Source: Synergistota bacterium (GTDB lineage: Bacteria > Synergistota > GBS-1). From it: DNA of 64,000 bases. This document shows positions 29,737-57,663 of the stretch, piece by piece (position 1 is the stretch's first letter; each line of letters begins with the position of its first letter). The stretch covers positions 124,001 through 188,000 of the forward strand of contig JANXBX010000001.1 in assembly GCA_025060595.1 (NCBI GenBank), written 5' to 3'. The translations under genes and the position numbers were made by a program. Under the pieces are notes generated by a model. That model ran no database searches, was not told the DNA's origin, and saw only the letters and a program-made list of their open reading frames with translations.

Positions 29737-30013
29737 TTTCTTCTCCTCCTTCCCTAAAGAAAAATATCATTTCACCAGGTTTGGCCATCTTAAGTTCCTC
29801 TCTCACTATCTTTTCAAGAAGAAATCCACTCTCAGCCAATCGAATTTTTTCTCTCAAATTTTTGTTCTCTGCTTCTAGTTCAGAAATTTTAACTCTTAAA
29901 AGATATGCCCTCTGATCAAACAGGATTATCTTTCTTACCTCTCTAATTATAGAAATGGAAGTAACAGAAAGAATAAAAATAAAAAGAGCATATGAAAGCC
30001 ACTTTCTTATCAA
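29705..30013 (-). CDS. FtsB/DivIC-like septum formation initiator
   Basis: 102 aa bitopic protein: N-terminal TM (about 5-23), coiled coil (about 35-62) and the C-terminal signature VREELKMAKPGEMIFFF of the FtsB/DivIC family. It acts in the divisome with FtsL/FtsQ. The charged tail beyond residue 85 is variable. TTG start 8 bp after the argS stop. Confidence 0.82.
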   Translation of the reverse strand: MIRKWLSYALFIFILSVTSISIIREVRKIILFDQRAYLLRVKISELEAENKNLREKIRLAESGFLLEKIVREELKMAKPGEMIFFFREGGEENGAKAGERKR

Positions 30014-30021
30014 TTATTCGT

Positions 30022-31704
30022 TCACATCCTCTCAGGCGCAGAAACACCTATAAGCGACAGAAAGTTTCTTATCACTATACCAACCGCTTTAGACAAAGCT
30101 AATCTTGCGTTTCTTAAATCCTGCGATGCGGAGAGTATAGGATGCCTATTATAGAAAGAGTGAAAGGCAGCTGATAATTTCTGAAGATAATAAGGAATCC
30201 TATGGGGAGCAAGTTCCCTGACAGCTATAGATATTTCTCCCTCAGCTTCTGATAAAACCTTCAAAAGCTCGATCTCTTCAGGTTCCACTAAAAGGTCTAA
30301 AGGTACCTTGGATAAGTCTGGAATAGGTATTCCCCTTTCTTTTGCCTGTTCGAACAAAGAACATATCCTAGCATGAGCGTATTGAACATAATATACGGGA
30401 TTCTCTTCAGACTGCCTCTTAGCAAGTTCAAGATCGAACTCAAGATGGCTATCACACTTTCTCGTCAAAAACATATATCTTGCTGCATCTTTACCAACCT
30501 CAGCAACTACTTCGGCAAGGGTCACAAATTCTCCAGCCCTTGTAGACATAGAAACAGGTTTTCCATCCCTTAATAGAGTTACAAACTGTATCAGAAGAAT
30601 TTGAAGAGAATCCGAACTTCTACCAAGAGCTTGAACAGCTGCCTTCATTCTCGGTATGTAGCCGTGGTGATCCGCTCCCCATATATCTATGACTATATCA
30701 AATCCTCTTTCATATTTATTTTTATGATAAGCTATATCCGAATAAATATATGTTGGAGCACCTTTATATCTAACAACGACTCTGTCTTTCTCATCTCCAA
30801 AAAGGGTAGACTTAAACCACAACGCTCCATCCTTCTCATAAATAAAACCTCTCTCCCTGAGATAAGCAATAGCCGCTTCTACTTCTCCATTCTCATAGAG
30901 AGATTTTTCACTAAACCAGACATCATATTTAACACCAAAATCTTCAAGATCTTTTTTAATCCCTTCTAAAATTCTTTCACAGGCATAGTTTCTAAAGTAA
31001 GTTAAACTTTCCTTTTCAGGCACATTAAGCCATTTATCACCATCTTTATCGATTATCTCCCTAGCTATATCATAAATATACTCTCCTTTATAACCATCCT
31101 CTGGAAAAGGAGCTTCTTGGGACCTACCCAAAAGCTCAAAATATCTTGACCTTACTGAGTTTCCAAGTATCTCCATTTGAAGACCAGCGTCATTTATGTA
31201 GTATTCCCTTTCAACCTCATAACCACCAAACTCTAAAATCGAAGCGAGAGAATCTCCAACAGCTGCACCTCTACCATGACCTACATGAAGAGGACCGGTA
31301 GGGTTAGCGCTAACAAATTCAACTTGGACCTTCTTCCCTTTACCCAAATCAAGCCTGCCAAAATCCTGATCCTTCCTTAATATCTCTCTGACAAATTCCT
31401 TAAACCAATCGAAGTTAAAACGGAAATTAATAAAACCTGGTCCAGCAATTTCGAAACCTTTGAGGATATCCTTCGGAACTTCTAACCTTTGAGAAATCCT
31501 TTCTGCAACTTCCCTTGGATTTACCTTAAAAAGGGACCCTATCTTCATAGCAATATTAGTAGCCCAATCACCAAATTCCGGCTTTCTAGGCTTCTCAAGT
31601 TCAGGTTCCGGCAAAAGCTTAATATCCCATCCCATCTCACTAGCTAACGATAAGATCGCCTTCTTTAATGCCTCGAGAATAATCCCCTTTATCTTTTCTT
31701 CCAT
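30022..31704 (-). CDS. argS: Arginyl-tRNA synthetase
   Basis: About 560 aa class I synthetase. Arg-specific N-terminal domain (to about 110), HIGH-type motif in ANPTGPLHVGHGRGA, the KMSK-like MSTRAG, and the C-terminal DALR anticodon domain ending FLSLIGVSAPERM. ATG 31704 follows GGGGAGGTGA; the earlier in-frame codon belongs to the upstream gene overlap. Housekeeping. Confidence 0.96.
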   Translation of the reverse strand: MEEKIKGIILEALKKAILSLASEMGWDIKLLPEPELEKPRKPEFGDWATNIAMKIGSLFKVNPREVAERISQRLEVPKDILKGFEIAGPGFINFRFNFDWFKEFVREILRKDQDFGRLDLGKGKKVQVEFVSANPTGPLHVGHGRGAAVGDSLASILEFGGYEVEREYYINDAGLQMEILGNSVRSRYFELLGRSQEAPFPEDGYKGEYIYDIAREIIDKDGDKWLNVPEKESLTYFRNYACERILEGIKKDLEDFGVKYDVWFSEKSLYENGEVEAAIAYLRERGFIYEKDGALWFKSTLFGDEKDRVVVRYKGAPTYIYSDIAYHKNKYERGFDIVIDIWGADHHGYIPRMKAAVQALGRSSDSLQILLIQFVTLLRDGKPVSMSTRAGEFVTLAEVVAEVGKDAARYMFLTRKCDSHLEFDLELAKRQSEENPVYYVQYAHARICSLFEQAKERGIPIPDLSKVPLDLLVEPEEIELLKVLSEAEGEISIAVRELAPHRIPYYLQKLSAAFHSFYNRHPILSASQDLRNARLALSKAVGIVIRNFLSLIGVSAPERM

Positions 31705-47445: not shown

Positions 47446-48207
47446 TTAACCTTTCGGCATGTATCCCATACGCCGAGAGATTTCCCTTGCACTTTCAACT
47501 ACAGCTTTAGCAAGTTCTTCTCCCACAGGAAGTATTCTAAAAGATGGACCAGCAATAGCAAGACAAGCTACAACCTTCCCCGTAGAATCGAAAATGGGAG
47601 AGGCCACCGTGGCCACTCCCTCCTCTCTTTCAGAGTTACTTATATCATAACCTATGGTTCTTATTTTCTCCAATCTCCTGTAAATTTCCTCCTTATCCGT
47701 AATTGTGCTAGAAGTAAAGGGTTTTATCATACTTAAAATTCTTTCCACGTCCTCCTTATCCATATAAGCTAAAAAGCATCTCCCCGATGAACCTGCCCAT
47801 AAAGGAAGCCTGTCTCCAATTCGAGCAGCACGCCTTAAACCTAGAGGACTTTCAACTTGCTCTATACAAACCCTATAATCTCCATCAAGAATATAAAGAT
47901 TAACAGTCTCCTTATATTTATCCCTAAGTCTCCTCATAAAGGGTAAAGCAACATTTCTAACCTCAAGGTCCTCTCGAGCAATAGCACTTAAATAGTATAG
48001 AGCAGGTCCTAACCTATAAACCTTTCTATCATCATCCTTTTGAAGAAAACCAAGCTCACACAAAACAGAAACCATACGTGAAGTGGTAGATAAAGGCAGA
48101 TTAACCTTATGAGATATTTCTGTTAGATTCTGCTTTCTACAATCTGACGAAAAAGTCAAAAGAATAGAGAAAGCACGCTTCACAGACTTAGCTACTTCCC
48201 TTTCCAT
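47446..48207 (-). CDS. IclR-family transcriptional regulator
   Basis: 253 aa. N-terminal winged HTH (SHKVNLPLSTTSRMVSVLCEL, about 30-50) and a C-terminal IclR effector domain (RAARIGDRLPLWAGSSGRCFLA, GVATVASPIFD). IclR proteins control carboxylate, uronate and aromatic catabolism. It is the last gene of the aroD-tctCBA unit, overlapping tctA by 20 bp. Candidate targets are that unit and the kduI/TRAP operon at 57.7 kb, whose promoter carries a long dyad. Confidence 0.88.
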   Translation of the reverse strand: MEREVAKSVKRAFSILLTFSSDCRKQNLTEISHKVNLPLSTTSRMVSVLCELGFLQKDDDRKVYRLGPALYYLSAIAREDLEVRNVALPFMRRLRDKYKETVNLYILDGDYRVCIEQVESPLGLRRAARIGDRLPLWAGSSGRCFLAYMDKEDVERILSMIKPFTSSTITDKEEIYRRLEKIRTIGYDISNSEREEGVATVASPIFDSTGKVVACLAIAGPSFRILPVGEELAKAVVESAREISRRMGYMPKG

Positions 48208-49711
48208 CGCTATAGACCGCCTCCCTCCCCTTCCTCAGGTTTTTCAAGAGTCCAGTTTGCGAAACTATCATATATATTATAGCAATAGAAAGAACAAGAC
48301 TAATGGGATAGGAAAAAAGGTCTCCTATAAAGGCTAGAGGATTGTTTTCAGCGAGTTGCATGGACCTACGAAAGTTAGTTTCAATTATAGGCCCTAAGAT
48401 AATTCCGAGAACCATCGGCCCTACAGCATATCCGTAAAGCCTCATAAAGTACCCCAAGATTCCAAAACCAAGCATCCAATAGACATCCGTAAGACTATTC
48501 TGGATAGCATAAGTTCCTATAACAGAAAGCATAACCACCATAGGCATAAGTATGTTCTTAGGAATCTCTATGAGCTTAAGAAAAACCTTCAATGTAGAAA
48601 GGACCAAGAGAACCATGGTAATAGCAGATATGGTTAAGCAACTAACGATTACCCAGAAAACTTGAGGAGTCTCGATCATAAGAAGCGGCCCCGGCTTCAA
48701 CCCATGAATAAAAAGCGCTCCTATTATTATGGCTGTGACAGCATCACCAGGAATACCAAGGGTAAGCATAGGTATGAAAGCCCCACCGATTGCAGCGTTA
48801 TTTGCAGACTCAGGAGCAATAACTCCCTCATAGGCTCCCTGACCAAATGGCCTTGAAGGGTTCTTAACAGTCCTTCTTGCACTATCATAAGCTATCAAAG
48901 CAGCTACATCTCCACCAGTTCCAGGCAAAGCTCCTATCCAAACCCCTATAAGGGAAGATCTTATAACAAGAGGTAAATGCTTCAAAACAGTTTTAAGATC
49001 TGGTATGACTTTATCAACAACTTGCTTTATAGGAGGGAGGGCCCCTCCACGAACCTGAAACAAGGCTTCGGAAACCCCAAATAATCCTATCATAGCAGGT
49101 ATAAAACTTATTCCCTGCATGAGATAAACTGTACCGAAGGTATATCTGAGCTCTCCCGTGCTTGGATCCAAACCAACAGTACTTAACAAAACTCCTAAAG
49201 CACCAGCTATTATCCCCTTCACCATAGAACCTTGTCCCATACCAGTAATAAGAAGTATTCCCATAACACCCAAAAGAAAGTACTCCCTTGGACCAAATTT
49301 TAAGGCAAACTTGGATACCGCTGGAGCTCCTATGGCAAGAATGATTACCCCTATAAGTCCCCCAATAAGAGAAGTTGTAACAGCAAGACCTATAGCTCTA
49401 CCAGCTTCTCCCCTCTGAGCTAAAGGATAACCGTCGAAAACGGTAGCAATAGCAGCAGGAGCCCCAGGAATATTTATCAATATCGCCGTTATGGAACCAC
49501 CGTAAACACCACCCATATAAACACCGCATATTAAAGCGAGTGCACTATAAAGATCCCACGAAAATGTAAAAGATATTAACAAAGAGGCAGCCATAGTAAC
49601 GCTTAAACCTGGGATCGCTCCAACCCACATGCCCGCAAATGTCCCAATAATTGTTAAAAAAAGAAGCTTAAGGTCTAAAAGAGGCATTAAAAGATACTCC
49701 CAATTCCCCAT
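48188..49711 (-). CDS. tctA: Tripartite tricarboxylate transporter, TctA large permease
   Basis: 507 aa with about 11-12 TM segments. The conserved GAIPGLSVTMAASLLISFTF, YGGSITAILINIPGAPAAIAT and ESANNAAIGGAFIPMLTLGIPGD are TctA signatures. Imports an organic acid with the TctC binding protein. ATG with AAGGAGGG upstream. Substrate unknown; citrate-like acids are only one option in this family. Confidence 0.93.
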   Translation of the reverse strand: MGNWEYLLMPLLDLKLLFLTIIGTFAGMWVGAIPGLSVTMAASLLISFTFSWDLYSALALICGVYMGGVYGGSITAILINIPGAPAAIATVFDGYPLAQRGEAGRAIGLAVTTSLIGGLIGVIILAIGAPAVSKFALKFGPREYFLLGVMGILLITGMGQGSMVKGIIAGALGVLLSTVGLDPSTGELRYTFGTVYLMQGISFIPAMIGLFGVSEALFQVRGGALPPIKQVVDKVIPDLKTVLKHLPLVIRSSLIGVWIGALPGTGGDVAALIAYDSARRTVKNPSRPFGQGAYEGVIAPESANNAAIGGAFIPMLTLGIPGDAVTAIIIGALFIHGLKPGPLLMIETPQVFWVIVSCLTISAITMVLLVLSTLKVFLKLIEIPKNILMPMVVMLSVIGTYAIQNSLTDVYWMLGFGILGYFMRLYGYAVGPMVLGIILGPIIETNFRRSMQLAENNPLAFIGDLFSYPISLVLSIAIIYMIVSQTGLLKNLRKGREAVYSDGKGSS

Positions 49712-49727
49712 TCTAATATAACCCTCC

Positions 49728-50204
49728 TTAAGGAAGAATCACCTTAAAAATTGTCCTAAAAACTACTGTTGAGAAGATCACAAAACCAACTGAATAAATA
49801 AGATACAAAAAGGAAGATTTTATATTCTTTCTTTCACAATAGAAAAACATACAGGTGAAAAGAAAAATTATAGTAGCAGATGTGAAGTGAATCACAGGAA
49901 GCATGAACGCCAAAAGAAACATCATTAAAATCATAAATAAAACGTTCCTATCTAAAGCATGCTTCAAAAGACCACTTATGGCTCTTATATCAACTTTTAC
50001 GTTACCAAGCTTTTTAATGGTAACGACAATTTCATAAAAGCATAGAGAAACTATTAACAGCGAGGTTAACTTTGGGAAAATTGACGGGGAGTACCATGTA
50101 CCTGAAGTCATACTCATAGCCTCGTAATATGCAAAGATCCCCACCCATAGAAAGAAAAGAGCAAATAAAAGCTCTCCCCACAAAGAATAATGGTTTTCTT
50201 TCAT
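49728..50204 (-). CDS. tctB: Tripartite tricarboxylate transporter, TctB small permease
   Basis: 158 aa with four predicted TM helices (LWGELLFALFFLWVGIFAYY first). Poorly conserved in sequence; identified mainly by size, topology and place between tctC and tctA. GGGGGAGG upstream of the ATG. Confidence 0.85.
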   Translation of the reverse strand: MKENHYSLWGELLFALFFLWVGIFAYYEAMSMTSGTWYSPSIFPKLTSLLIVSLCFYEIVVTIKKLGNVKVDIRAISGLLKHALDRNVLFMILMMFLLAFMLPVIHFTSATIIFLFTCMFFYCERKNIKSSFLYLIYSVGFVIFSTVVFRTIFKVILP

Positions 50205-50283: not shown

Positions 50284-51282
50284 TTAAGGCTTAGGGATAC
50301 CAAATTCCTCAGGAGACTTTTTAGCAGCACCAGCTTGCCAAAGAAGCCAAGAAGCTATAGATCTTTGCTTATCCAAGAATGTCCTCGCTTCCTTTCCAGT
50401 CAAGCCTAACGGTATGGTATCCCTTTTAGCCAAAAATTCCTGAAACTTAGGATCATCGTATGCTTTCTTAAAAGCATCAGTAAGTTTGTCAATTATCTCC
50501 TTTGGGGTACCTTTTTTCACAAAAACACCATACCAGGGATAGTAGGGAACATATTTGTCATACTCAGGATAAACTTCCGTTATAGCTGGAATATCCGGAA
50601 AAGCAGGAAGCCTCTTCTTGTCAAATACCATAAGACCTCTTAACATCTTGGCCCTTAAAAACTCAGCCGCAGGAGCTATACCAGAGGGCATAGCATCTAC
50701 ATGTCCCCCAAGAAGAGCTGTAAGACCAGGTCCTTCACCAGGAAACTCTACCATATTAAACTCAACACCACTAACTACCTTCATGATTGAACAAACGACA
50801 TAAGGAGCGCCTCCTACACCTGTAGCAGCAATCTTAACTTTTCCAGGATTAGCTTTAGCATCCTCCAGAAACTCCTTGAAGCTCTTATATTTAGAATCAG
50901 CTTTAACCACCGTAACATTAGGAACAGCACCAATAATTATTATTGGCTCAAAATCACCATAATCTATCTCCGCAAGTCCTAAAACCTTATACATCGATGG
51001 GTTCTCCGCTCCAAAAAGAAGATTATATCCATCCGCGGGCTGGTTATAAACATAAGTCATACCGATAACTCCAGTAGCTCCAGGCCTATTAACTAAGATT
51101 ATCTTCTTACCCAAGTAAGCCTCAGCCAATGGGGCTATGGCCCTTGAAATAACGTCCGTAGCTCCACCTGCTCCCCATTGAATAGTGCCTTGGATCTCTT
51201 TCTCAGGATAGGAAGCAAATGAAATTCCACCCCATAAAATAACTCCCACACATATAAGCACTAATACAAACCTTTTAAACAC
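50284..51282 (-). CDS. tctC: Tripartite tricarboxylate transporter substrate-binding protein (TctC/Bug)
   Basis: 332 aa. Signal peptide with cleavage near ISFAS (24), then the Bug fold: IQWGAGGATDVISRAIAP, VNRPGATGVIGMTYVYNQPADGY and GGHVDAMPSGIAPA. It captures the carboxylate in the periplasm. GTG start with AAGGGGG six bases upstream. The ligand cannot be read from sequence; the neighbours suggest a hydroxy-acid or shikimate-like acid only weakly. Confidence 0.92.
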   Translation of the reverse strand: MFKRFVLVLICVGVILWGGISFASYPEKEIQGTIQWGAGGATDVISRAIAPLAEAYLGKKIILVNRPGATGVIGMTYVYNQPADGYNLLFGAENPSMYKVLGLAEIDYGDFEPIIIIGAVPNVTVVKADSKYKSFKEFLEDAKANPGKVKIAATGVGGAPYVVCSIMKVVSGVEFNMVEFPGEGPGLTALLGGHVDAMPSGIAPAAEFLRAKMLRGLMVFDKKRLPAFPDIPAITEVYPEYDKYVPYYPWYGVFVKKGTPKEIIDKLTDAFKKAYDDPKFQEFLAKRDTIPLGLTGKEARTFLDKQRSIASWLLWQAGAAKKSPEEFGIPKP

Positions 51283-52261: not shown

Positions 52262-53227
52262 CTATACAAATCTGGTAATTTTATCATATTTATGAAAACT
52301 AAAAGACGTATCAAAATGAGCGTCAAAAACCTCAAACATCAAATTAATATCTGGTTCTGAATCTGTCCAAATCTTAAAAGCTAAAGCGGCTTGATAAATC
52401 AACATTCCTTTACCAGAAAGAGTTTTAGCTCCGACTCTCTCAGCACACTGAAGCATTTTAGTTTTTGGGGGATCATAAACTATGTCACACACTAACTGGT
52501 TTGCCCTAAAGTCCTCCTCGCAAAGGAGAGACTCTTCTTTAGAAGAATACATTCCAACGCTAGTGGTGTTTATAATAACATCAAACTCTCTTGCCATACC
52601 AATTTTTAACTCACTTAACGGGATAAAACTACTCTTTCCAGGAAAAAGCTTGTTTAAATCCTTAACCAACCTTTCTCCTCTTTCAACACTCCTATTAACT
52701 ATAACTAAGGCTTCTACCCCACTTTTAAGCATCTCAAAGGATATTGATCTAGCGGAACCCCCAGCTCCAAGTATTAGAACCCTTTTACCCTTAGGGCCTT
52801 CCCCAAAAGCCTCTATGAAAGAAATCATAAAACCCATACCATCGGTGTTATAGCCTATAAGCTTCCCATCTTTAAGGGCTATAGTATTTACAGACTTACA
52901 AAGAGATGCACTTTCATCAAGCTCATTGAGAAAATCAATAACCTTCTCTTTCCAAGGAATGGTTACATTAAAACCAACAAAGTTAAAATAGGACATTCCT
53001 TTAACTATTCCTTCAAGATACCCTTCTTCCCTAACCTCGATAGGCAGATATAGATAATCTAAACCTAGCTTTCTAAAACAAGCATTGTGTAACTTTGGAG
53101 AAAGGCTTTTAGAAAGGGGATACCCCACAATTCCTAAATACTTAGTTTTAACTGTTGGTATAAAACTATCATAATAAAGCCTATCCATTTCTTTTAAACT
53201 TTCCAATCTCGCTAGGGAAGACCCCAA
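52262..53227 (-). CDS. aroE: Shikimate dehydrogenase
   Basis: About 321 aa, some 40 longer than usual through an N-terminal extension before YLGIVGYPLSKSLSPKLHN. Shikimate-binding SLS, catalytic Lys in NVTIPWKEKV and Asp in YNTDGMGF, cofactor motif LGAGGSARSI and NRSVERGE (NADP-type). Reduces 3-dehydroshikimate to shikimate. TTG 53227 has GGGAGGT seven bases upstream; GTG 53236 lies inside that SD. Expression passes a leader-peptide attenuator, which argues for a biosynthetic rather than quinate-catabolic role. Confidence 0.92.
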   Translation of the reverse strand: MGSSLARLESLKEMDRLYYDSFIPTVKTKYLGIVGYPLSKSLSPKLHNACFRKLGLDYLYLPIEVREEGYLEGIVKGMSYFNFVGFNVTIPWKEKVIDFLNELDESASLCKSVNTIALKDGKLIGYNTDGMGFMISFIEAFGEGPKGKRVLILGAGGSARSISFEMLKSGVEALVIVNRSVERGERLVKDLNKLFPGKSSFIPLSELKIGMAREFDVIINTTSVGMYSSKEESLLCEEDFRANQLVCDIVYDPPKTKMLQCAERVGAKTLSGKGMLIYQAALAFKIWTDSEPDINLMFEVFDAHFDTSFSFHKYDKITRFV

Positions 53228-53250
53228 AGATACCACCTCCCAAAAGAGTA

Positions 53251-53285
53251 ATAAAAAAAGCCGCCACCGGGAAAGGTGGCGGCTT
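53251..53285 (-). terminator. Attenuator terminator in front of aroE
   Basis: 11-bp GC-rich stem (arms 53258-53268 and 53275-53285, AAGCCGCCACC) with a 6-nt loop, followed on the minus strand by TTTTTTTATT, 15-20 bases before the aroE SD. Its loop and 5' arm are also the partner of the antiterminator. Confidence 0.88.
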
Positions 53286-53344
53286 TTCGTTCAAGCCTTA
53301 GAGGTAGATTCCTACCTCTTACAAAGCATAGCCAACCTTTCCCG
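53268..53344 (-). promoter_or_regulatory. Antiterminator helix of the aroE attenuator
   Basis: CGGGAAAGGU (53344-53335) can pair over 10 bp with ACCUUUCCCG (53277-53268), which disrupts the terminator. The first arm is in turn sequestered by a 13-bp helix between 53413-53401 and 53337-53325 (one G-U) and by the hairpin CCCGC/GCGGG at 53356-53341. An extra 8-bp hairpin (53300-53307/53312-53319) lies between. This 1:2, 2:3, 3:4 scheme is that of amino-acid biosynthetic attenuators. Confidence 0.75.
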
Positions 53345-53422
53345 CAACTTGGCGGGCCAAGTAAAGTAAAAATAATAATAAAAGGAAAACCACACATTAA
53401 GGTTGGCTACGCTTTTGACCAC
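53312..53422 (-). CDS. aroE leader peptide, aromatic-rich (36 codons)
   Basis: GTG at 53422 with GAGGGAGG seven bases upstream; TAG at 53314-53312. Residues 11-22 read WFSFYYYFYFTW: two Trp, four Phe, four Tyr in twelve. Translation of this run needs all three aromatic aminoacyl-tRNAs. A stall there leaves the antiterminator arm (53344-53335) free, while a ribosome reaching the end of the ORF covers it and lets the terminator form. The mechanism is inferred from known trp/pheA-type leaders; the peptide itself is clear in the sequence. Confidence 0.85.
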   Translation of the reverse strand: MVKSVANLNVWFSFYYYFYFTWPAKLRERLAMLCKR

Positions 53423-53454
53423 GGGAATACCTCCCTCTTAAGCTATTGCTTAAT

Positions 53455-53483
53455 TATATATCACAAAGAGATAAACCTGTCAA
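53455..53483 (-). promoter_or_regulatory. Promoter of the aroE leader
   Basis: TTGACA (53483-53478) with TATATA at 17 bp (53460-53455) or TATAAT at 19 bp (53458-53453) on the minus strand. The -35 overlaps the dctQ stop codon. Predicted start about 53447, giving a leader of about 220 nt. Confidence 0.8.
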
Positions 53484-54010
53484 TAGGTCAAGGGCTCCTT
53501 TTGTTCAAGGCTTTCCTCCATGGGACATTCTTTAACCTTATCTTTAAATTTAAGTCGGCATATAAAGGATGCTATGGAATAAAGCAACATGATAAAGCCC
53601 GATATAGGCATACAGGAATATAAAATACGTTTGGGGAGCCTAAATATAGGAGTCCAATCAGTGGCTATGACCGTAAGCTTTAAACTATATATAAAAAGCG
53701 TAAGGAAAAAGAGAATATTTATAATACTAATAGCAATATCAAAGGCCTTCCTAGCCTTTCCCTTAAACCTAGAGGGAATAAGGTAAACCACAAAATGTTC
53801 TCCCTCTCGCCATAAAGCAGCTGAACCATAAAAAACAAAGTAAGCAAACATCATCTCCACTATCTCGTCAAACCATCCAAAAGAAAAAACGGGTATAAAG
53901 CGGAAAACCACATTACCTAAAACAAGAAAAAAGAGAGCGCTTAAAGAAAATATACTCATACCTCGTAAAAACTTTCCTAAAGCTCTATCAAAGCCCTTAA
54001 TAAAATTCAT
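53480..54010 (-). CDS. dctQ: TRAP transporter small permease (DctQ)
   Basis: 176 aa with four TM helices; FFLVLGNVVFRFIPVFSFGWFDEIVEMMFAYFVFYGSAALWREGEHF in parts matches DctQ, where the W-x-DE segment is conserved. Partner of DctM and DctP for Na+-coupled uptake of a carboxylate or sugar acid. ATG 12 bp after dctM. Confidence 0.88.
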   Translation of the reverse strand: MNFIKGFDRALGKFLRGMSIFSLSALFFLVLGNVVFRFIPVFSFGWFDEIVEMMFAYFVFYGSAALWREGEHFVVYLIPSRFKGKARKAFDIAISIINILFFLTLFIYSLKLTVIATDWTPIFRLPKRILYSCMPISGFIMLLYSIASFICRLKFKDKVKECPMEESLEQKEPLTY

Positions 54011-54022
54011 CTTTATCTCCCC

Positions 54023-55303
54023 TCAACCAACTAGGTTAGGAAGAAATAGAGCTAACCCTGGCCATAGAGCCATGATCAAAGTTACTATGAAAATACCGAT
54101 AATATAAGGCAGGAGCTCCTTACTCAGAGTCCAAATATCAACACCACTTATACTCGCTACCGCATAAAGACTCATCCCTACAGGAGGAGTAACTAGACCA
54201 ATCATGGAACACAATATCATGATTACTCCAAAGTGAACAAAATCTATATTATATCTGGCTATAAGAGGCATAAATATAGGAATAGTTATTACTAAGACAG
54301 CTATACCTTCAAGAAAACAACCTAAAACAAGCAGTACAGCAATTATCACCAGCAACAGACCAGTAGGTGTTGAAACCATAGATGTCAAGGCATTTATAAC
54401 AGCATCAGGTATCCGTTGATGAATCATTAACCAACCAAAAAATCCAGCCGTTGCAATTATAAACATGACACGAACAGAGTGAACCGTCGTTTCCCACAAT
54501 ATCCTTGGTATATCTTTTATCGAAATTTCTTTGTATACAACAATACCTAAAAACAAAGCATAAACGCAAGCCACCATCGCAGCTTCAGTAGGTGTAAAAA
54601 GCCCTGATAAAATTCCTCCAATGATAATTACAGGCATAATAAGGGCAAGTGATGCCCCTTTAAAGCTCTCCCATATTTCTCTTGGAGAAGCGCGTTCACC
54701 CTTGGGATAGTTCCTAATTTTTGCCGTTATGTATACCGCAATCATCATAGCAATAGCCATCATAAAACCAGGAATGAAACCAGCCAAGAAAAGTTTCCCC
54801 ACAGATGTATTAGTAAGGCTTCCATAAATTACAAAGGGGATGCTGGGAGGAACAACCGGACCTATCGTGGATGAGGCAGCAGTTACAGCAGCTGAAAAGG
54901 GTCTGTCGTAACCAGCCTCATCCATTGCCTTTATCTCAACCAACCCTAAGCCCGCAGCATCAGCCACTGCAGACCCAGACATCCCAGAAAAAATCAGACT
55001 TGCCAAAACGTTAACATGCCCGAGACCACCTTTAACATGACCAACCAAAGCGTTAGCAAACCTAAATATTCTCGTTGTCATACCCCCTGTATTCATTAAG
55101 TTTCCAGCTAATATGAAAAAGGGTATCGCCAAAAGAGTGAAACCTGTAGTTGCAGCATACATACGCTGAGCTATCATAGTAAGGACATGAGTTTCTCCAA
55201 GATAAACGAAAAACCCAACCGCGGTTATACCCATAGACACAGCTACAGGAACCCCTAAAAACATCAAGCCAACTAATACCGCAAATATGGCAAATGCCAT
55301 CAT
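54023..55303 (-). CDS. dctM: TRAP transporter large permease (DctM)
   Basis: 426 aa, about 12 TM helices. GVPVAVSMGITAVGFF, IPFFILAGNLMNTGG, MSGSAVADAAGLGLVEIKAM and FTPTEAAMVACVYALF are DctM signatures. Ion-transporter superfamily channel of the TRAP system. Starts about 35 bp after dctP. Confidence 0.94.
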   Translation of the reverse strand: MMAFAIFAVLVGLMFLGVPVAVSMGITAVGFFVYLGETHVLTMIAQRMYAATTGFTLLAIPFFILAGNLMNTGGMTTRIFRFANALVGHVKGGLGHVNVLASLIFSGMSGSAVADAAGLGLVEIKAMDEAGYDRPFSAAVTAASSTIGPVVPPSIPFVIYGSLTNTSVGKLFLAGFIPGFMMAIAMMIAVYITAKIRNYPKGERASPREIWESFKGASLALIMPVIIIGGILSGLFTPTEAAMVACVYALFLGIVVYKEISIKDIPRILWETTVHSVRVMFIIATAGFFGWLMIHQRIPDAVINALTSMVSTPTGLLLVIIAVLLVLGCFLEGIAVLVITIPIFMPLIARYNIDFVHFGVIMILCSMIGLVTPPVGMSLYAVASISGVDIWTLSKELLPYIIGIFIVTLIMALWPGLALFLPNLVG

Positions 55304-55338
55304 CCCAGCATCCCCAATCCCTTAAAAACCAGTTACTG

Positions 55339-56337
55339 TTACAATTTCTCTACCATCTTAAGGAATGTCTCTACATTTTCTTTTCCTGCATACTGAGCTA
55401 TTCTTTCATAAGCCGGTCCCATCTTGGCCTTAAAAGGAGCGAGATCTGGCGTTGTAATTACCATACCCAATCCCTTCAGCTTTTCAATAAGCCCTGCTTC
55501 CTCATTAACAAGGGTTTGCCTCATATAATCTCCTGCCTTCTTACTCTCCTCAGCTATAATTTTTTGCTGTTCAGGTGTAAGTTTATCCCAGGCTTTCTTA
55601 CTCATCACATGAACCATAGAGTTATAGCAGTGACGTGTTAAGGCCAAATACTTCTGAACCTCGTAAATCTTATTAGCATAGATAACAGCTATCGGGTTTT
55701 CCTGACCATCAACAACACCCTGCTTTAATGCCATATAAAGCTCAGCAAAAGATATCTTCGTAACTACAGCTCCTAAGGCTTCCATTGCAGCTTGAAGCTG
55801 GATCTCCGGCGGAGTACGAATCTTAAGACCTTTCACATCATCAGGTGAATTAATGGGGCGGACATTGTTTGTCAAGTTTCTGAAACCCCACTCCCAATTA
55901 GAAAGGAATATTAGACCTTGCTTCTCAAGTTCACCAGAAGTCCACTCCTTGAAGGGACCATCAAGAACCTTGTGAGCATGACTATAATCCCTATAAACGA
56001 AAGGCAACATAACAACAGCAAACTTCTTGGAATACTTATCTAATGCGCCTTGAGTAGGTAAGCTCATTTCTATAACACCAGCGATGTTTTGCTCCAAAAG
56101 TTGAGGTGGATCCCCAAGTTGATTATTCGGATAAACTGCTATAACTATTCCACCGTTAGTGCGCTTCTGGACATTCTCCGCAAACATATTAGCAGCGCGA
56201 TCGCCAGGATGCCCTGGTGCAGCATAGTGACCAAACTTCATGGTTATGGTTTTCGCTTCGGCAACTGTAAATCCAGGTATGTAAGCTAATACTATGGCCA
56301 AACACAACATAACCACTAAACCTACACTCCTCTTCAT
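55339..56337 (-). CDS. dctP: TRAP transporter substrate-binding protein (DctP)
   Basis: 332 aa. Signal peptide with cleavage near VAEA (28), then FGHYAAPGHPGDRAANMFAE and GLKIRTPPEIQLQAAMEALGA; the conserved Arg of the carboxylate pocket lies in LKIRTPP, and GVVDGQENP follows. The gene order cupin-kduI-dctP-dctM-dctQ points to a uronate or unsaturated uronide as ligand. Confidence 0.93.
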   Translation of the reverse strand: MKRSVGLVVMLCLAIVLAYIPGFTVAEAKTITMKFGHYAAPGHPGDRAANMFAENVQKRTNGGIVIAVYPNNQLGDPPQLLEQNIAGVIEMSLPTQGALDKYSKKFAVVMLPFVYRDYSHAHKVLDGPFKEWTSGELEKQGLIFLSNWEWGFRNLTNNVRPINSPDDVKGLKIRTPPEIQLQAAMEALGAVVTKISFAELYMALKQGVVDGQENPIAVIYANKIYEVQKYLALTRHCYNSMVHVMSKKAWDKLTPEQQKIIAEESKKAGDYMRQTLVNEEAGLIEKLKGLGMVITTPDLAPFKAKMGPAYERIAQYAGKENVETFLKMVEKL

Positions 56338-56417
56338 CTTTACCCCCCCTCTCTAGAAGCCTCTTATGAGGCCTTATATAAACGTGAACCTCAAAGGATT
56401 TTGGGTCCCAATCTATA

Positions 56418-57266
56418 TCAAAACAAACTATCTAAGGATACCGCATCCATATCATCGAAAGCCTGATTTTCCCCAACCATTCCCCACACAAAAGAGTAGT
56501 TGCATGTTCCAACACCGCAATGAATAGACCAACTCGGAGCTATCACTGCCTCTTCATTTCTTACCACTATGTGTCTCGTTTCTTTGGGAAGACCTATGAA
56601 GTGAAAAACTATTGCATTCTGAGGAAGATCAAAATAAAGATAAACTTCCATACGTCTTTCATGGGTATGAGGAGGCATAGTATTCCAAACAGAGCCAACT
56701 TCTAAGCAAGTTACTCCCATTACTAAGTTACACGTGGGAAGAATCTCCGGGTGAAGCATCTGATAGATAGTCCTCTTATTACTAGTTTCTAAAGCTCCTA
56801 AGGATACCTTTCGAGCCTCTTCTTTTGTCACCCTACGAGTAGGAAAACTTGTGTGAGCTGTTCCACTTAAAAAATAAAACTTCGCAGGATCACTTGGGTT
56901 TAAGCTTCTTAAACGAACATCCTTATTCCCTTTCCCAACATAAAGCGCGTCCAACCTATTTAATGTGTATGAGACTCCGTCAACCAAAACCTCACCTGGA
57001 CCGCCTAAGTTTATAACTCCTAACTCTCGTCTTTCCAATAAATAGTCCGCTCCCAGAGTCTTCCTATTCATCTCAAGCTTTACTTCACTTAATGGAACAG
57101 CTCCTCCAACAATAATCCTATCTATATGAGAATAAATCAATTTTACCTTCTCAGGGACAAACAAATCCTGTATAAGAAATTCTCTCCTTAAAGCCTGAGT
57201 GTCTAATACTTTAGCATGGTCCGGATGTATGTTATAACGTATCTCTAAATCAATCTGACTACTCAT
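56418..57266 (-). CDS. kduI: 5-keto-4-deoxyuronate isomerase
   Basis: About 282 aa, full length for KduI. The Zn site H-x-H-x4-E is in MPPHTHERRMEVY with the last His in SWSIHCGVGT; QMLHPE and IYSHIDRIIVGGAVP are further signatures. Converts 5-keto-4-deoxyuronate (from pectin or glycosaminoglycan disaccharides) to 2,5-diketo-3-deoxygluconate. ATG 57266 with GGAGGAGG upstream; overlaps the cupin gene by 8 bp. kduD and kdgK are not seen nearby. Confidence 0.9.
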   Translation of the reverse strand: MSSQIDLEIRYNIHPDHAKVLDTQALRREFLIQDLFVPEKVKLIYSHIDRIIVGGAVPLSEVKLEMNRKTLGADYLLERRELGVINLGGPGEVLVDGVSYTLNRLDALYVGKGNKDVRLRSLNPSDPAKFYFLSGTAHTSFPTRRVTKEEARKVSLGALETSNKRTIYQMLHPEILPTCNLVMGVTCLEVGSVWNTMPPHTHERRMEVYLYFDLPQNAIVFHFIGLPKETRHIVVRNEEAVIAPSWSIHCGVGTCNYSFVWGMVGENQAFDDMDAVSLDSLF

Positions 57267-57663
57267 TTTTCTCCTCCTCCACAACAAGACCTTGCTTACG
57301 CATCAACTCCACATGGCTATCACGGGGCGGACAAAATATATCTATTCCCTTAAAACCAGTTTTTGTATAACCACCATGTTCTACATTGGGCGGATGAACT
57401 ACCACATCCCCTGCCTCCACATGGTATGTTTGTCCATCAATAACATGCTCCTCCGAACCCTCTAAAATAATCAAAATCTGCTCCGCCTCATGCCTATGAA
57501 GCGGGAACTCTGTACCCGGTGGGTTTTCAATAAAGCTTATCAATATGTTTTCGCCTAATATGAAGCGCGTTTTAGAAGCTTCCGTTAACCAACTTATAGG
57601 TAGCTCTGATATCCGGTATACGTAACGCTTGTCTTTCATTCTAAATTTCCCCATAAGATACAC
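57259..57663 (-). CDS. Small cupin-domain protein (KdgF-like candidate)
   Basis: 134 aa single cupin: motif 1 FPLHRHEAEQILIILEG (H-x-H-x3-E) and motif 2 GDVVVHPPNVEHGGY. Size and place next to kduI resemble KdgF, which linearises unsaturated uronates before KduI; this is inference from context. First gene of the operon after a consensus promoter, SD AGGAGGTG. Confidence 0.7.
   Translation of the reverse strand: MYLMGKFRMKDKRYVYRISELPISWLTEASKTRFILGENILISFIENPPGTEFPLHRHEAEQILIILEGSEEHVIDGQTYHVEAGDVVVHPPNVEHGGYTKTGFKGIDIFCPPRDSHVELMRKQGLVVEEEKNE

Follow-up and report, generated by a model that had tools for sequence, protein, structure and literature searches.

A leader peptide reading tryptophan, phenylalanine and tyrosine codons is predicted to control aroE-aroD by transcription attenuation in Synergistota

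Ribosome-mediated transcription attenuation is an established mechanism, exemplified by the pheA, pheST and trp leaders of Escherichia coli (PMC1183508). Attenuation has also been proposed for aroF-tyrA and tyrA-linked genes of Vibrio, Shewanella and other bacteria, that is, for early genes of the aromatic pathway and, in one predicted operon, together with aroE; in the accessible text of these reports, the cases are predicted from terminators or ascribed to Tyr-tRNA, and no comparatively supported leader peptide with Trp, Phe and Tyr codons is described (PMC2659441, PMC1173090). His leader attenuators have been recognized by comparative genomics in Firmicutes (PMC2965389, PMC9413887), and for Synergistetes a HisR repressor has been reported (PMC9413887). 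Our literature search, which covered few subscription papers, returned no leader attenuators described for Synergistetes and no aroE, DAHP-synthase or Tyr leader peptides of the type considered here. An earlier sequence-only reading had suggested that the aroE leader is not a textbook case.

The locus lies in a window of 64,000 nucleotides, the whole stretch of DNA analyzed here, which is part of contig C1 of a Synergistota genome (G000). Positions 53483-53253 of its minus strand hold a promoter, a Shine-Dalgarno sequence, a 36-codon open reading frame (ORF), competing helices and an intrinsic terminator, followed by aroE-aroD. Like the E. coli pheA, pheST and trp leaders, this element combines a short ORF containing codons for the end products with mutually exclusive antiterminator and terminator helices, the terminator preceding the gene. 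It differs from them in that it reads all three aromatic amino acids, targets the common pathway (aroE-aroD) rather than a terminal branch, carries its control codons between arms 1 and 2, and has an antiterminator that pairs with the loop and upper stem of the terminator. Several amino acids of a shared pathway are likewise reported by one leader in the ilvGMEDA and thr operons, although those leaders concern branched-chain amino acids or Thr/Ile, have other sequences and belong to another phylum. The His leaders of Firmicutes resemble the present element in occurring outside Proteobacteria and Actinobacteria and in having paralogous copies before related genes, but they read only His, unlike the Trp/Phe/Tyr leader of aroE. 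The element would be an attenuator of a known kind, new in that it responds to all three aromatic amino acids and acts on the common pathway.

The promoter, Shine-Dalgarno sequence, GTG-initiated ORF and aromatic run at residues 11-22 named in the sequence-only reading were all found in place. The promoter (53483-53453) consists of TTGACA (53483-53478) and TATATAAT (53460-53453), with 17 nt between TTGACA and TATATA and 19 nt to TATAAT. A generic sigma-70 scan did not list it, owing to the -10 rule of the scan; a TTGAC(A/T)-17/18-TATAWN match is present at about equal distance in all 7 copies of the element described below. Following the Shine-Dalgarno sequence GAGGGAGG (53437-53430), recognized by sequence, the leader ORF (53422-53312; MVKSVANLNVWFSFYYYFYFTWPAKLRERLAMLCKR) extends from a GTG start at 53422 to a TAG stop at 53314-53312 and has orthologues in genome G001, of the same genus, and in genome G003, of another genus of the same family. 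Codons 4-8 form arm 1 of the 1:2 helix (AGCGUAGCCAACCUU, 53413-53399), and codons 11-22 (53392-53357) form the putative sensor WFSFYYYFYFTW (W F S F Y Y Y F Y F T W), in which 10 of the 12 residues are aromatic (W2 F4 Y4). Next come a small hairpin identified by sequence (53356-53341; CCCGC-CAAGUU-GCGGG), the 3' strand of which is common to the antiterminator, the 5' strand of the antiterminator itself (CGGGAAAGGU, 53344-53335), still within the leader ORF, and arm 2 (AAAGGUUGGCUAUGCUUU, 53340-53323), which, like arm 1, is supported by covariation. Another small hairpin, suggested by folding and comparison, surrounds the stop codon (AGAGGUAGGAAUCUACCUCU, 53319-53300).

The intrinsic terminator (53287-53253; AAAAGCCGCCACC-UUUCCC-GGUGGCGGCUUUU plus a U-run) is identical in three aroE copies, and its loop and upper stem constitute the 3' strand of the antiterminator (ACCUUUCCCG, 53277-53268). 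The 10-bp antiterminator proposed previously was recovered as such (53344-53335 with 53277-53268). The other two helices exist as well, but their lengths had been underestimated: the 1:2 helix (53413-53399 with 53340-53323) has about 15-16 bp, including one G.U pair, rather than 13 bp, and the terminator has a 13-14-bp stem capped by the UUUCCC loop rather than an 11-bp one.

The first gene behind the terminator, aroE (shikimate dehydrogenase, TIGR00507; 53227-52262), is the sole aroE match in the G000 genome. It is preceded by a Shine-Dalgarno sequence, GGAGG (53240-53236), and since the GTG at 53236 overlaps this motif, the TTG at 53227 is more likely the start codon. The gene for type I 3-dehydroquinate dehydratase, aroD (52136-51351), lies on the same strand. 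Beyond it, again on the same strand, we noted a gene for a tripartite tricarboxylate transporter receptor (tctC, 50284-51282) and two membrane genes (48188-50204); tctC follows aroE-aroD in G001 and G003 also. The tctC gene may belong to the operon under attenuation, and its transporter could serve to take up an intermediate of the pathway. Upstream, positions 53480-57287 of the same strand encode a TRAP transporter (dctP, dctM, dctQ), different from those discussed below, and a KduI-family gene.

An aromatic run of this density is exceptional. Among 1,282 short ORFs of the window, 10 Trp, Phe or Tyr in 12 residues occurred once, in the aroE leader, and none of the 111,029 short ORFs in 60 first-order Markov windows reached this value. 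The ORF ranking second in the window, with 9 of 12 (29943-30047), shares its DNA with coding genes read in a different frame and was attributed to chance. Compared with shuffled sequences, the leader RNA folded with a z-score of -6.1, none of 200 shuffles being as stable.

Some aromatic genes elsewhere are controlled by T-boxes, and one report cites T-boxes for tyrosine (PMC1262725), so the RNA might sense something else, as a T-box or metabolite riboswitch, with the aromatic ORF being secondary. We regard this as extremely improbable: Rfam covariance models, including the Trp leader (RF00513) and T-box models, matched nothing but tRNAs at gathering scores in the window and eight related loci, the helix strands lie inside an ORF that looks translated, and, as described below, codon content follows the product of the operon.

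Relatives of the element were sought in 185 genomes of the phylum with a sequence pattern and a covariance model, R1, which comprises the CGGGAAAGG/CCUUUCCCG core and the 1:2 helix and was built from six of its seven strong matches. These seven matches (E <= 3.4e-22; next best E 4.4e-5) fall in 4 of the 185 genomes, all of one family, three of them upstream of aroE and the other four upstream of a TRAP dctPQM operon. The element is kept in all three aroE-aroD loci found (G000, G001 and G003), which represent two genera and share the order dctQ-leader-aroE-aroD-tctC; the leaders of G001 and G003 read LLRNCVTSLNVWFVYYYYFYFTWPAKVRERLVALSRR and MRKGTASLNVWFSFNYYYFYFTWPAKLRERLAVLSLR, respectively. 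Alignment of the region upstream of aroE, proposed earlier as a check, thus revealed retention of the Trp/Phe/Tyr run and of the alternative helices, with covarying pairs, in 3 of 3 loci. The R1-type element is absent from aroE of G002, the product of which is 38% identical to that of G000, and from aroE genes of other families. Many matches from other genera, with E values between 1e-3 and 1, have the appearance of ordinary terminators, and a weak match in G000 (contig C11, position 55032; E 0.36) resembles a gene end with its terminator and was judged to be due to chance.

The four TRAP paralogues, one in each of the four genomes, have the same RNA core, but their leader run is almost exclusively Tyr (MIINAVSLKDKSYCVYYYYYYYLKPAKLRERLAALLLR in G000, MLMVTSAASEKVYYYAYYYFYYYSPPEGGKGWLRKG in G001, LLSQSAASKLHSFGYRYYYYYLKPARMRERLAVLTMG in G002 and LLISVTSRRNVSYYAYYYYYYLYPARLRERLVALPLR in G003), with no Trp and with Tyr from about codon 13. 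In these copies, the hairpin around the stop codon retains its pairing with altered sequence or register. The aroE and TRAP leaders thus form a near-identical natural pair of putative attenuators differing mainly in the amino acids read, which could serve as a tool for relating codon number and identity to specificity.

Comparison of six copies revealed compensatory double changes in six pairs of the 1:2 helix. The covariation score of the whole structure was 0.226 versus 0.149 for shuffled alignments (0 of 500 reaching it), and slid controls scored far lower. The antiterminator is invariant among the aroE copies and shows one double change (UGGGAAAGG/CCUUUCCCA) in the TRAP copy of G001, where the end pair is U-A instead of the C-G found elsewhere. 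In the same copy, the small hairpin is CCCACC-AGAA-GGUGGG, a compensatory version of CCCGC-CAAGNU-GCGGG, and the RNA core lies in another reading frame, so that the peptide tail reads PPEGGKGWLRKG. Therefore, the conserved entity is the RNA rather than the peptide tail, and the sequences indicate that selection is on the RNA and the aromatic codons. The geometry is also nearly fixed in the seven copies: counted from the start of the ORF, arm 1 occupies nt 9-27, the run extends from nt 30 or 36 to 63-69, GGGAAAGG is at 79-85, the stop at 108-114 and CCUUUCCC at 146-154.

These observations bear on the possibility that a functional small (membrane) protein is made from the short ORF, the terminator being incidental or belonging to the ORF's own transcript. 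The ORF does have a Shine-Dalgarno sequence, and the segment PAKLRERLA is strongly conserved in most copies. Yet the frame change in the TRAP copy of G001 replaces this segment with PPEGGKGWLRKG, the N-terminal residues vary while arm 1 covaries with arm 2, the run switches from Trp/Phe/Tyr to nearly all Tyr along with the downstream gene, and different leaders following the same logic precede other aromatic operons (see below). A small protein is accordingly a very improbable explanation.

We also considered that the terminator merely ends the upstream dctPQM transcript, with the promoter and ORF arising by chance and aroE being unregulated at this site. The element indeed directly follows dctQ, and the -35 hexamer of the leader promoter begins at about the dctQ stop codon. 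However, the upstream neighbors of the TRAP copies differ from those of the aroE copies, and a gene still follows; every copy retains the combination of promoter-like hexamers, ORF, run and helices; and the interval from the terminator to aroE lacks promoter-like sites, the two listed in its vicinity being inside aroE. It is thus highly unlikely that the terminator serves only the upstream operon.

In sum, the features by which attenuators are recognized in sequence are all present, namely an ORF near the transcript start led by a Shine-Dalgarno sequence, cognate codons, mutually exclusive helices and an intrinsic terminator, and comparison adds the covariation of the helices, their fixed geometry and the link to aromatic genes. 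We are therefore highly confident in predicting that the aroE-aroD element is a ribosome-mediated transcription attenuator. From its layout, we infer that the ORF is translated, that ribosomes stall in it, that transcription terminates at its end and that each of the three amino acids elicits a response. RNA polymerase would start at about 53450, with a ribosome trailing on the leader ORF. When Trp-, Phe- and Tyr-tRNA are all charged, the ribosome would either cover arm 2 from the stop codon or leave, allowing the 1:2 helix to form; the antiterminator strand would thus be unavailable, the terminator at 53287-53253 would form and aroE-aroD would be off. Undercharging of any of the three tRNAs would stall the ribosome between codons 11 and 22, where it would sit between arms 1 and 2; a ribosome stalled early would cover arm 1, and one stalled late would cover the CCCGC strand of the small hairpin. 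CGGGAAAGGU could then pair with ACCUUUCCCG, precluding the terminator, and aroE-aroD would be transcribed. The leader would probably keep aroE off unless Trp, Phe or Tyr runs short. For a phylum that has received little study, this amounts to a scheme of chorismate-pathway regulation that lends itself to direct testing.

In equilibrium folding of the full-length RNA, the terminator always wins. The switch must therefore be kinetic and be decided during transcription, as in known attenuators (PMC1183508). When stalls were modeled by masking only the nucleotides under the ribosome, arm 2 was freed and the antiterminator formed solely for stalls at W11 and F12. When pairing across the ribosome was also disallowed, the antiterminator formed with the ribosome stalled anywhere between codon 9 and W22 and was lost from A24, just past the run. 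The attenuator reading is thereby qualified: the control codons are placed between the two arms of the 1:2 helix instead of on arm 1, and in folding, stalls beyond F12 antiterminate only if the ribosome bound in the loop holds the arms apart. Which aromatic codons count thus depends, in the model, on the assumption made about the stalled ribosome. The TRAP leader of G000 behaved like the aroE leader, as did the aroE leader of G003, albeit more weakly for early stalls, whereas in the TRAP leader of G003 the antiterminator was restored only at Y20-Y23.

Taken at face value, the mask-only result would mean that the element is an attenuator in which only the W11 and F12 codons control aroE, the remainder of the run being inert or slowing the ribosome. 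We consider this rather unlikely, given that three orthologues preserve the run in full, that it ends where a stalled ribosome would start to hide the antiterminator strand, and that the TRAP copies, with no Trp and with Tyr from about codon 13, would show almost no response under the mask-only assumption.

Leader codons match the operon product in four operons of G000: WWW for trp, W/F/YYYFFF for DAHP synthase-aroA-aroC-aroKB, W2F4Y4 for aroE-aroD and Y8 for TRAP. The DAHP synthase leaders of G000 (contig C2) and G003 (contig C3), MNIWADRIRDFGYYYFFFE or MNIVVSKVGACWYYYFFFE (...YYYFFFE), are followed by a three-segment attenuator, GGGGUGUUUACCC / GGGUAAAUACCCC / GGUAUUUACCC. In G000, DAHP synthase is the first gene of a series that continues with aroA, aroC and a fused aroKB; together with aroE-aroD, this covers the chorismate pathway with two operons, both of them preceded by an aromatic leader, and we infer that the two act together. 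WWW leaders (NWWWQA) stand at the head of the trpE-G-D operon in G000 and of the trpE region in G003, in both cases ahead of GC-rich hairpins with T-runs.

At 24 of the 27 DAHP synthase loci examined outside the family, the gene is preceded by a leader that combines an aromatic run with a GQWRYYASG-like segment; CGUGGAAAUCCG, located further along, pairs with the loop of the terminator. In 18 sequences, six pairs of this antiterminator are doubly changed, with 18 doubly changed cells against 5.3 in shuffled data. Most aroE genes of the phylum have no leader of their own, and a search of 1,500 nt at separate aroE genes in other families revealed none. Both genes were located in 32 genomes, in 18 of which aroE shares its contig and strand with DAHP synthase, lying 1.3-5.5 kb downstream in 16 and just upstream in 2, and DAHP synthase usually has its own aromatic leader. 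In the family of G000, G001 and G003, by comparison, aroE is apart from DAHP synthase, beside aroD and behind an aromatic leader of its own (three loci).

It seems likely that aromatic amino acids are managed throughout the phylum by leader-peptide attenuators, with Trp, Phe and Tyr read jointly upstream of DAHP synthase (and a second time, in one family, upstream of the separated aroE-aroD operon), Trp alone before trp and Tyr alone before transporters. The aroE and TRAP elements would then be copies with a re-coded run, and the sensor a swappable module.

For one kind of sodium:solute symporter (Pfam SSF), 19 of 27 genes also have Tyr-rich leaders such as MMGKALFNNNYYYYFYAYPRTYDASGFLVFSTK upstream. 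Leader codons alone thus predict tyrosine or aromatic substrates for the TRAP transporter and the symporters, and the transporters behind Tyr leaders are likely tyrosine transporters. The Tyr-rich leaders of the symporters come with terminators in many genomes of the phylum.
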